Assembly: GCA_913055745.1 (NCBI GenBank)
Contig: CAJXJZ010000006.1
Coordinates: 1 to 62,729, forward strand
Direction: 5' to 3'
DNA from: an uncultured bacterium
GTDB taxonomy: Bacteria > Hydrothermota > Hydrothermia > UBA1063 > CAJXJZ01
DNA length: 62,729 bases
Shown here: positions 58,673 through 62,729 of the stretch, piece after piece
Position numbering within the stretch: the stretch's first letter is position 1
Layout: each line of letters starts with the position of its first letter
The notes under the pieces: model-generated
The model's database searches: none
What the model was told of the DNA's origin: nothing
Seen by the model: only the letters and a program-made list of their open reading frames with translations
Position numbers and translations under genes: made by a program

Positions 58673-59845
58673 ATGAGCCTTTCCAGAATGGTAAATAACC
58701 TAAAAGAATCAGATTCTTTTAAAGTTCTCTCCTATGCCAAACAACTTGAAAGACAGGGTAAAAAAATCATACATTTTGAGATAGGTGAACCTGATTTTGA
58801 TACAGACCAAAAGATAAAGGATGCACTATGGGATGCACTTTCAAGGGGAGAGACCCATTATACAGCGTCTCAGGGCATTCTCTCCTTAAGAGAAGAAATA
58901 GCAAGGTATGAGAAGAGGTTTAGAAATATAGAAGTAAGTCCTGACAATATAGTAATAACACCTGGTGGAAAGCCTATTCTACTGTTTGTGCTCATGGCAA
59001 TCTTAAACGAAGGCGATGAGGTACTTGTGCCAAGCCCTGGTTATCTATCCTATGCAAGCCTTGTCAGATTCGCAGGCGGAAGGCCCATATATTACAATAT
59101 CAATATCTATGAGAGGAACACCATAAACCCAGATGAAATAAAGAGTAAAATAACAAGAAGAACAAAGGCAATAATAATAAACTATCCATCCAATCCGACA
59201 GGGAGAATGGCATCTGCCACAGACCTTCTTGAAATCCTTGAAATAGTAAGGGATAGGAAGATACCAGTAATTTCTGATGAGGTATATTCCCGCATCACAT
59301 ATGAAAATGAGCACATCTCCATAACAAAGATGGCAGAAAAAGAAGATATGGATTTAATTGTTGTTGTTGATGGGTTTTCCAAAACATACGCAATGACAGG
59401 TTGGAGGCTCGGTTGGGGAGTATTACCCAATGTTCTTATAAAACCAGTGGTCAAAATAATACAAAATTCTATCTCATGTGTGCCCCCATTTGTGCAGTAT
59501 GCAGGGATCGTGGCCTTACAAGATGGTGATAATTTCATAAAGCACATGGTAAAAGAATTCAAAAAAAGGCGTGATACCATCTTTGACATGTTGCTTGAAA
59601 GTGATAGAATAGAAGTTCCAAAACCAGAAGGTGCATTTTACTTCTTCCCGCACATCGTTGATCTAAAAATGACAAGCGTAGAGTTTACCAAAGGATTACT
59701 TGAAAAATATGGAGTTGCCATGCTACCTGGGAGTGCCTTTGGTCCAACAGGAGAGGGGCATATAAGACTATCTTTTGCAAACTCCCTTGAAAATCTCCAA
59801 AAAGGCGTTCAATACCTTTTAGATTATCTCAAAGAACTAAAATAA
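58673..59845 (+). CDS. Class I/II pyridoxal-phosphate aminotransferase (aspartate aminotransferase-like)
   Basis: 390 residues, fold type I. It shows FEIGEPDFDTDQKIKDAL, HYTASQGILSLREEIARY, NYPSNPTGRM, DEVYSRITYE and the PLP Lys in DGFSKTYAMTGWRLGW (~236), with the substrate-binding Arg in EGHIRLSFANS near the end. These fit the Iγ/bacterial AspC-like amino-acid aminotransferase group; the actual amino donor is unknown. It starts 15 bases after the previous gene with AAGAGGA upstream and is the last gene before the gap that precedes the restriction locus. Confidence 0.92.
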   Translation: MSLSRMVNNLKESDSFKVLSYAKQLERQGKKIIHFEIGEPDFDTDQKIKDALWDALSRGETHYTASQGILSLREEIARYEKRFRNIEVSPDNIVITPGGKPILLFVLMAILNEGDEVLVPSPGYLSYASLVRFAGGRPIYYNINIYERNTINPDEIKSKITRRTKAIIINYPSNPTGRMASATDLLEILEIVRDRKIPVISDEVYSRITYENEHISITKMAEKEDMDLIVVVDGFSKTYAMTGWRLGWGVLPNVLIKPVVKIIQNSISCVPPFVQYAGIVALQDGDNFIKHMVKEFKKRRDTIFDMLLESDRIEVPKPEGAFYFFPHIVDLKMTSVEFTKGLLEKYGVAMLPGSAFGPTGEGHIRLSFANSLENLQKGVQYLLDYLKELK

Positions 59846-60174
59846 GTTTGATAAAACTCGTTTACTGATTGCTTTTGTCGTTATAGAGAATAAATAATTT
59901 TAAATGCATTTTCGGATTTCAACTTTATCCCTATATTAATAGTTTACACTTTTTCCGTGTAGTGGATTATTTCAAGATATTTTATTTTGATTTTTTTTGT
60001 TTATTATTTTATAATATAATTGTAAAGGCAGAGGATGACTGAACATGGCCATATCTGAAAGATACCTATTGTGTAAACCTTTTAATGTGTTTTATAATAA
60101 GAGAGATAACTCAATGAGAGTATAAATGAAACAGTGGTTTAATAAAGGTAAACAAGAATTTGGAGAGTGTGGAT
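59846..60174. other. AT-rich gap between chromosomal genes and the type I restriction locus
   Basis: No gene, tRNA or integrase site is recognisable in these 329 bases, which are more AT-rich than the flanks. They contain a small TACAC/GTGTA inverted repeat near 59946-59962, a strong promoter at 59987-60015, and a leader of about 150 bases with a chance 27-codon frame (60045-60125). The change of gene type here suggests the edge of an accessory region. Confidence 0.6.
59987..60015 (+). promoter_or_regulatory. Promoter for the type I restriction-modification operon
   Basis: TTGATT (59987-59992), a 17-base T-rich spacer, and TATAAT (60010-60015). The transcript would carry a leader of about 150 bases before hsdM, far longer than others in this window. 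Confidence 0.65.
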
Positions 60175-62634
60175 ATGAAAAATAATAATGGAAATAATGG
60201 TAAGATAACCTTAAGACAACTTGAGACCCATCTTTTCAAGGCAGCAGATATTCTAAGAGGCAAAATGGATGCCTCTGAATATAAGGAGTATATTTTTGGC
60301 ATGCTTTTCTTAAAGCGTGCATCAGATGTTTTTGAAGTAAAAAGGGAAGAATTAAGAGACAAATATGAATCCCGGGGCTTTCCTGATGAACAGGTTAACG
60401 AACTTTTAGAAGATCCCGTTTCATATGGAGAGACATTTTTCGTACCAGAAAAAGCAAGATGGCATAATATTCTTAATTTAAAGGAAGATGTAGGTAATCA
60501 ATTAAATAAAGCATTATATGCTTTAGAAGAAAAAAATCCAGAATTGTATGGAGTGTTAAAACATATTAATTTTAATGCTGTAAAAGGAAAAACGCGTCTT
60601 AAAGACCAGCAACTTATAGATCTAATTCATCATTTTAACAAATATAGGCTTACCAATGATAATTTTGAGTTTCCTGACCTTCTTGGTGCTGCTTACGAAT
60701 ATCTTCTTAAGCAGTTTGCCGATTCAGCAGGGAAGAAAGGCGGTGAGTTTTATACCCCTCCTGAGGTCAAAAGGTTAATGGTTAGACTTATAAAACCGCA
60801 AGAAGGCATGACAGTCTATGACCCTACTGTTGGTTCGGGTGGTTTTTTAATAGCATCTAAGAACTATATTGAAGAAATAGGACAAAATTCAAGGAATTTA
60901 GCCCTCTATGGTCAAGAACTCAATGGTTTAACCTGGTCTATATGTAAGATGAATATGATTCTTCACGGCATACCAGATGCACATATAGAAAATGAGGATA
61001 CCTTAACAACTCCTATGTTTGTAGAGAATGGTTATGTAAAGCAATTTGATAGGGTTTTAGCAAATCCTCCTTTTTCTCAGAACTATTCCCGTACCAATAT
61101 GCAATTTCCTGAAAGATTTAAGTATGGCTTTACTCCCGAGACAGGCAAAAAGGGAGATTTAATGTTTTTGCAGCATATGATTGCCAGTTTAAAACCAAAT
61201 AGCATAATGGCAACAGTTATGCCTCATGGTGTATTGTTCAGGGGTGGACAGGAAAAGGTTATAAGAGAAGGAATTGTAAAGGATGACCTTATTGAGGCAA
61301 TCATTGGCCTACCTCCCAAACTCTTCTATAATGTAGGCATCCCCGCCTGTATCATTGTAATAAATAAAAATAAACCAGCATATTTAAAAAATAAAATCTT
61401 ATTCATAAATGCAGATAGGGAATATGGAGAAGGAAGAAACCAAAACTATTTAAGACCTGAAGATATTGAAAAAGTAGTCTCTGTTTTTGATAATAAAAAA
61501 GAGATACCAAAATATTCAAAAATTGTACATATAAAGGAGATAGAAGAAAACGATTTCAATTTAAACATCCGTAGATATGTAGATAATTCACCAGACCCTG
61601 AGATTGAAGATGTACATGCTCACCTTGAGGGTGGAATTCCTAAAAAAGAGGTTAAACTTTACGAAAAAAAATTCAAAAAATTTAATTTTTCACCTGAGTT
61701 AATCTTAGAAGATAAAAACGATAAATACTTGCAGTTTTCTTCAAGTATTGATGAGAAAAGCAAGATAAAAGAAATCATTGAAAATAATGAAGATGTAAAT
61801 ACTACTATCTTAAAACATAAGGAGAAATTGCAGGAATGGTGGAAAAAGGTAAGTCCTGATATTGAGAACTTCCCTGATAATAACAATTTATGGAAGTTTA
61901 GAGAGAAGGCCATTAATCTCCTAAAAGAAAGCCTTATGCCTTTTGGCACTCTTGATGAATTTAAAATTGCAGGTATATTTGTGAACTGGTGGGAAGATCT
62001 TCAATATGACTTTAAAACCATAGTTTCAACAGGCTGGAGTAAAAATTTGATTGAAGATGAGAGGATAAAGGAAAAGTTTTTCATGGAAGATATAGAAGAA
62101 ATTGAAGAACTGGAGAATAAAGTAGCAGAGGTTGAAGGAGAACTAAACGAGATTTTAGAAGAGGTTGAGGAGTGGGACGAAGAGGAACAGGGTAATAAAA
62201 CTGCCAATAAGGTAAAGAAGTACTTAAAAGAGATTGTTAAGGACTTGAGAATGGATGGGAGTGAATCTGCACTAAAAGAAGTTACAAAATGGGAGTATCT
62301 AATTGCAAGAATTGATAAGAAAGAGAAGGAGTTAAAAAAGTTAAGGAAGGAATTGAACAATAGGGAAAAGGAGACTGAGGTAAAGATCGGACAAAAAAGA
62401 GAATCATTAACAGAACGGGAAGCGAAGCAATTACTTCTTGAAAAATTTAATGAACTTATTGAGGAGTATCTTCACAAATATCTGAATACAGAGAAAAAGG
62501 AACTTATAAAGATATTTGAAAACCTGTGGGATAAGTATCAGGTTTCTTTAACCGAATTAAAACAGGAAAGAGATGCTGAAGTTAAAAAACTGGATGAGTT
62601 TTTGCTAAGATTGGGATACTATGGACAGAAATGA
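60175..62634 (+). CDS. hsdM: Type I restriction-modification DNA methyltransferase subunit (HsdM), long form
   Basis: 819 residues from ATG 60175 (GGAG upstream); a TTG 15 bases earlier is in frame. The HsdM N-terminal domain ([36 protein letters not shown]) is followed by the N6-adenine methyltransferase core with motif [11 protein letters not shown] (~216) and motif IV NPPF (~297), and [14 protein letters not shown] before motif I. Residues ~500-819 are an extra highly charged, coiled-coil-rich extension ([31 protein letters not shown]). Standard HsdM has about 500-530 residues. It methylates the target adenine with HsdS; hsdS and hsdR would lie to the right. Confidence 0.95.
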
Positions 62635-62729
62635 TATTCTAAAACTGCTTGAAAGGGGAGAAAGCAATAAGCTGGAGTTTAAGGAACGATTTAATGACGG
62701 CGTCCTGAAAACAATATCCGCTTTTGCAA
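62621..62729 (+). CDS. AlbA_2/Schlafen-type putative DNA-binding protein, 3'-partial
   Basis: Starting at ATG 62621, inside the end of hsdM, the frame reads [20 protein letters not shown]...[13 protein letters not shown] and runs off the window. 'GES-x-x-LEFK' followed by a 'K-x-I-x-A-F-A' helix is the opening of the AlbA_2 (divergent AAA-4/Schlafen-like) domain. Such proteins often sit between hsdM and hsdS in type I loci. Only 36 codons are visible, so the rest is unknown. Confidence 0.75.

Follow-up and report, generated by a model that had tools for sequence, protein, structure and literature searches.

The window, the whole stretch of DNA analysed here, is the entire contig C6 (62729 bases) of a source genome of 1.79 Mb in 63 contigs, whose completeness is rated at 95.36%. 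Its final 2.9 kb hold one complete gene and one cut gene, both on the + strand, and the following features were mapped there.

59846..60174, + strand: AT-rich intergenic region upstream of hsdM, 26.7% GC
59987-60015: single sigma-70-like match in this upstream gap, from the promoter scan
60175..62634, + strand: hsdM, 819 aa, long-kind type I modification subunit (PADLOC PDLC03031), from the open reading frame with domain and model matches
60220..60636, + strand: HsdM_N domain, residues 16-154, from the domain scan
60676..61590, + strand: N6_Mtase domain, residues 168-472; it includes DPTVGSGG (216-223) and NPPF (297-300)
61636..62631, + strand: C-terminal extension of HsdM, residues 488-819, helical, from its conservation in the relatives compared, its charge and structure models
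62621..62728, + strand: AlbA_2/Schlafen-type gene, first 36 codons, cut by the contig end, from Pfam and the homologue in locus L008

The hsdM gene starts with the ATG at 60175, which is preceded by GGAG at 60162-60165, and runs for 819 codons to the stop codon at 62632-62634. The gap before it has a GC content of 26.7%, lower than in the window (36.5%) or in hsdM (33.6%), so that the AT-rich gap pointed out in an earlier note on this DNA, made from the sequence alone, is borne out. The promoter signal upstream is weak, because the region 59700-60300 contains 6 promoter-like sites on both strands, compared with 3.1 +/- 1.8 in shuffles. HsdM_N (115.5 bits, cut-off 24.5) and N6_Mtase (351 bits, cut-off 20.4) both score well above their cut-offs, confirming the identification of the gene as a type I hsdM, and the NCBIfam hsdM equivalog TIGR00497 was narrowly passed (243.9 bits versus a cut-off of 242.75). 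DPTVGSGG and NPPF, which we take to be the AdoMet-binding and NPP(F/Y) catalytic motifs of HsdM, contain the residues D216, P217, G220-G223, N297, P298, P299 and F300, all invariant in 47 aligned HsdM sequences (alignments A1 and A5, comprising 46 of the 80 loci described below and the window copy). The PADLOC model PDLC03031 (MTase_I) is matched end to end, residues 10-816 of 819 aligning with model positions 2-834 of 834 at 1262 bits; all 47 aligned members match it, the window copy included, and at the level of the model match no difference from the window HsdM was seen. Judging from its family, the long HsdM would make m6A at a bipartite site picked by HsdS.

The most conspicuous part of the protein is its C-terminal tail. 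The closest solved HsdMs by sequence are the two 7vru chains of 499 and 504 aa (11 solved sequences were matched, with lengths of 445-638 aa), and the 819-aa window protein thus carries about 315-330 extra residues. Asp, Glu, Lys and Arg make up 42.5% of residues 488-819 versus 27.3% of the preceding residues. Structure models predict a largely helical tail with long helices at 697-744 and 747-788, and the AlphaFold mean pLDDT was 89.2 for the whole HsdM and 93.0 for residues 488-819 modelled alone. The description of some 300 extra charged, coiled-coil residues therefore agrees with these values. When the tail was searched as a possible known domain, no Pfam family matched the window tail at E 0.001, and a Pfam scan of 47 tails returned four families, each in only one or two members. 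A profile search of solved sequences found mostly coiled-coil proteins (best E 0.0043), Foldseek found nothing for the tail model at E <= 0.001, and the best VIA-align result (7zr1_C, Z 9.3, rmsd 15.7, 169 aligned residues) was within the range that the tool itself states for unrelated helical models. Assignment to a known domain thus found no support in the Pfam, profile, Foldseek or VIA-align searches, which does not in itself make the fold a novel one. The tail of the long HsdM is a domain without a name, open to testing.

The second open reading frame begins with the ATG at 62621, inside hsdM, overlaps it by 14 nt and offers 36 codons before the contig ends. On these 36 residues PF04326 (SLFN_AlbA_2) gave E 0.019 and 15.9 bits, below its curated cut-off of 25.3 bits. 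The AlbA_2 assignment is kept as probable despite this score, because the fragment shares 64% identity with the AlbA_2 protein at the same position in L008 (BLASTP E 8.6e-13; E 1.5e-7 in the genome search), a homologue which itself matches PF04326 at 72 bits. The statement that the next gene overlaps hsdM and opens like an AlbA_2/Schlafen protein was thereby corroborated. Judging from the same homologue, the full gene is expected to encode AlbA_2 followed by HATPase_c_4.

A scan of genome contigs with six search patterns gave 544 stretches encoding an HsdM relative, from which the best 80 were kept. For the comparison of tails, 74 of these loci were used, after six (L022, L025, L026, L029, L075 and L077) were dropped because their hsdM is cut by a contig end. 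The tail was present in 74 of 74 uncut relatives, in a set that favours tailed copies because it consists of the best 80 of 544 matches and because the tail contains three of the six search patterns. HsdM lengths in these 74 relatives and the window ranged from 749 to 963 aa (median 841). For several records from bacteria and archaea within the best 80, the core (residues 10-480) was 85-86% identical to the window. Among the 22 nearest relatives, identity to the window was 44-71% over the tail part 621-815, versus 78-86% over the core. Judged by these sequences, the extension is a family trait of this kind of HsdM. Type I enzymes in general can do without it, since the short HsdMs of Geobacillus (500 aa) and Vibrio casei (588 aa), in which the match ends at residue 484-489, also directly precede hsdS. 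Among plasmid records, only 2 of the 3480 with a match cover 80% of the HsdM query at one place, indicating that most plasmid type I HsdMs lack the tail or have it diverged or split. A match to HsdM was found in 16 of 40 taxonomic relatives, and none aligned beyond residue 499; because these matches stop there, the window hsdM was probably gained by horizontal transfer.

In some cyanobacteria the tail is a gene of its own. Plasmids of Synechocystis, Nostoc C052 and Oscillatoria PCC 7112 carry it as a separate gene between the hsdM core and hsdS, and Synechococcus PCC 7502 has a single long hsdM gene. The split core and tail genes lie at L104:4995-7668, L106:3998-6597 and L107:3998-6606, where the tail gene is annotated only as hypothetical protein. 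On the Synechocystis plasmid pSYSX, slr6095 (the HsdM core) and the 373-aa slr6096 (gene names from passages of PMC7296061) stand as separate genes ahead of hsdS, and slr6096 matches the window tail in two blocks (E 3e-20 and 7e-15). This system, Ssp6803V of Synechocystis sp. PCC 6803 (slr6095/slr6096/slr6097/slr6102), shares the HsdM core, the tail homologue, HsdS and HsdR with the type of locus considered here; its tblastn match covers 70% of the window HsdM query at 56.6% identity and runs into slr6096, and its bipartite m6A motif is known from passages of PMC7296061. Unlike the window, it has the tail as a separate 373-aa gene and no AlbA_2 gene between hsdM and hsdS; genes of the Fic family and HigB type sit between its hsdS and hsdR.

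According to the relevant passages of Wu et al. (2020, PMC7296061), who describe slr6096 as the C-terminal part of the M subunit, slr6095, slr6096 and slr6097 (hsdS) were disrupted one by one. Each mutant had 0 methylated sites among 1261 for GGAN7TTGG and likewise 0 among 1261 for CCAAN7TCC, whereas wild-type cells had 1255 and 1256. The same passages allow that the first two insertions (slr6095 and slr6096) may be polar, that in slr6096 possibly on slr6097. They also give a reduction of the unrelated GGm4CC methylation, to 57% in the slr6096 mutant (comparison value 98.8%) and 72% in the slr6097 mutant, which the authors judge indirect. Since disruption of slr6096 abolishes the bipartite m6A methylation, with polarity possible, the tail most likely belongs to the methyltransferase. 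Under this reading the helical coiled-coil tail would be built into the enzyme as a constitutive element, probably aiding the assembly of HsdM with HsdS. Slr6096 has also been considered as a filament former, and gave no discernible structures in vitro according to a passage of PMC7002697.

The genes following the long hsdM were then counted in 73 loci; the six cut loci and L017 gave no downstream ORF. Downstream ORFs were chosen mechanically, longest first, with a minimum of 80 aa, or of 40 aa if open at the contig end, so that short genes can escape the count. In these 73 loci from the best 80 of 544, the next ORF matched Methylase_S in 60, AlbA_2 in three (L005, L008 and L019), Fic in two and a MazE-like antitoxin in one by Pfam. 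At least 7 of the 73 had a next ORF with none of these four assignments, among them L004 and L018, where the Methylase_S ORF comes after the ORF lacking assignment. These two intervening ORFs, L004:12734-13549 (271 aa) and L018:12438-13106 (222 aa), have no Pfam match at E 0.001, and the 222-aa protein shows a weak match to PADLOC PD-T4-6. Within or beside the sister operons we found genes for Fic, MazE/PIN, an OLD-like ATPase and a GmrSD-type protein, the Fic protein of L012 matching SoFic at 352 bits (PADLOC). Variable slots after hsdM or hsdS were seen at L012:12494-13633, L015:12583-13710, L016:12475-13126, L004:14950-16725 and L020:13777-15642.

AlbA_2-family genes occurred in several of the 80 loci (best of 544): three adjoin hsdM, one is a remnant, five follow hsdS (L027, L047, L066, L070 and L073) and one, in L042, lies about 8 kb away from hsdM. 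The copy in L019 (L019:12443-12814), beside a long hsdM, is shortened to 123 aa comprising N- and C-terminal parts, and L011 has AlbA_2-family remnants immediately after the long hsdM (L011:5917-6331), the ORF entered in the count for this locus lying past the remnant. The profile used for these loci derives from six locus proteins plus the window fragment, so that the matches of those six are built in. By Pfam, AlbA_2 is confirmed in L005, L008, L019, L027, L042, L047, L066, L070 and L073, and weak matches were obtained in L039 and L041. Located after hsdS, L027:13752-16109 encodes a 785-aa protein with AlbA_2, NB-ARC and TPR-like matches. Some functional link between HsdM and AlbA_2 is possible, because AlbA_2-family genes recur near this HsdM. 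On the gene orders read here, they are recurrent in several positions and are not a fixed partner of the long hsdM.

The closest locus with the whole order readable (best 80 of 544) is L008 of Candidatus Atribacteria UBA6251, whose HsdM is 75-76% identical to that of the window, has the same tail and is followed by an AlbA_2 gene in the same position, which begins 36 nt past the hsdM stop, whereas that of the window overlaps hsdM. By Pfam, its order is hsdM, AlbA_2+HATPase_c_4, Methylase_S (hsdS), HSDR_N/SWI2_SNF2 (hsdR) and a YgjP-like peptidase, a standard hsdM-cargo-hsdS-hsdR arrangement. In three of the related loci, the 3' end of hsdR is overlapped by a gene for a YgjP-like metallopeptidase (L008:18443-19153, L004:20772-21470 and L021:18761-19438).

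The earlier note had proposed that the extension docks the AlbA_2 protein. This would give a restriction-modification complex that holds an extra effector, in a guard arrangement like that of PrrC, which according to passages of PMC3874165 and PMC2610378 is kept within a type I enzyme. The two genes are adjacent and overlapping in the window, L008 and L005 have the same order, and AlbA_2-family genes recur in these loci. However, the tail is found in 74 of 74 uncut relatives, yet hsdS comes next in 60 of 73 loci (best 80 of 544), and most loci read have a tail without an adjoining AlbA_2 gene. Nor are the tails of the AlbA_2-linked copies distinct: in the 22 relatives with core identity >= 78% (from the best 80 of 544), identity to the window over 621-815 was 56-70% for the AlbA_2-linked copies (n=4, including the L011 remnant) and 44-71% for the others (n=18), the 44% being that of L024, where the match breaks off at residue 720. 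In a tree of 27 HsdMs, AlbA_2-linked rows were interspersed with HsdS-linked ones (8 of 24 inner branches well supported). L019 and L011 keep the tail although their AlbA_2 gene is shortened or decayed, and three plasmid loci of cyanobacteria encode the tail separately, with no AlbA_2 gene adjoining it. In addition, the methylation loss reported in passages of PMC7296061 for the disrupted Synechocystis tail homologue, arising directly or via polarity on hsdS, speaks against docking. The note had named, as a finding contrary to its idea, a standard type I locus downstream together with absence of the extension from close relatives; L008 is indeed a standard type I locus, but the extension is present in the sequence relatives. 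As a dock for AlbA_2, the tail is unsupported by tail identity, neighbour counts and tree, and we regard this role as very improbable. An equally slim chance is given to a broader version, in which the AlbA_2/HATPase_c_4 protein, and the Fic or PIN protein replacing it, are guarded effectors kept inactive by a common HsdM tail; if so, the tail, besides being part of the methylase, would serve as a dock for effectors in general and would release the one carried by the locus on inhibition of the restriction-modification enzyme.

Instead, the second gene probably travels with the locus as an optional passenger, AlbA_2 being one kind of cargo that can be exchanged for others such as Fic and MazE/PIN. 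The AlbA_2/HATPase_c_4 gene would fill the hsdM-hsdS slot that sister loci fill with Fic or MazE/PIN or leave empty, and its own role would probably be accessory defence or regulation. That the protein is a transcriptional regulator of the operon and not an effector concerns the second gene only and is compatible with its being optional cargo. L008 and L005 share the AlbA_2 + HATPase_c_4 architecture, and the relatives in L066 and L070 also match winged-helix/HTH families. The group for this architecture is presumably COG2865. COG2865 is placed among transcriptional regulators in a passage of PMC3339403, though it appears as RecG-like replication/repair in a figure legend of PMC7641849 on the neighbourhoods of proteins that frequently accompany type I systems. 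Against regulation, the AlbA_2 gene is missing from the slot in most loci and therefore not generally required, Fic and MazE/PIN genes occupy the slot alternatively, and the L008 and L005 proteins match PADLOC Argonaute-associated defence models (best E 2e-26 and 4.4e-24), which suggests defence no less than regulation; the regulator is thus possible but rather doubtful. We found no paper on hsdM, hsdS and AlbA_2 together, and noticed none on AlbA_2 proteins between hsdM and hsdS among the matches listed. Extra genes carried within a type I locus, as AlbA_2 would be in the window, are described for PrrC, the Rlo genes of Campylobacter jejuni and tgvAB of Vibrio cholerae (passages of PMC3874165, PMC2610378, PMC2928727 and PMC11411939); unlike the window gene, these belong to other protein families, and in those passages only PrrC is described as held by the restriction-modification enzyme.

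The locus is not extendable rightward in the assembly, because the window is the whole of contig C6 and ends there. The possibility that the rest lies on another contig was followed up, and hsdS, hsdR, YgjP and further AlbA_2 were not found in this assembly. Profile searches for Methylase_S (in the rest of the assembly) and HSDR_N (in the assembly), which were positive in 9 of 14 control genomes, gave no match, and no HsdR homologue, YgjP or further AlbA_2 was found in the rest of the assembly by searches of which one was run without a control and another missed the window's own 36-codon fragment and would miss short pieces. These results would fit a decaying remnant consisting of hsdM and a partial AlbA_2 gene, with no hsdS or hsdR. 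But hsdM is complete and the AlbA_2 frame runs without interruption to the edge of the contig, so that the break is one of assembly. With a genome rated 95.36% complete in 63 contigs, a segment of about 6 kb could be missing; decay is accordingly unlikely.

Because the remaining locus is absent from this assembly, the operon of the window was reconstructed from L008. The window would hold the 5' portion of a type I operon that has spread horizontally, most likely with the order hsdM-albA_2-hsdS-hsdR. We consider it highly probable that the whole is to be read in this way, with the tail as a constitutive part of the methylase and not a dock for AlbA_2, and with AlbA_2 as optional cargo. The end of the window thus appears to hold the first gene and a small part of the second from an ordinary bacterial type I restriction-modification locus, belonging to what looks like an already known long-methylase subtype of type I systems. 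This kind occurs across many bacterial and archaeal phyla, and the window is one more member that carries little weight by itself. A useful by-product is that the Pfam-unmatched tail of the long HsdM has a stand-alone homologue in slr6096, and since this gene has already been disrupted with loss of methylation, as passages of PMC7296061 report, the role of the tail is directly testable.
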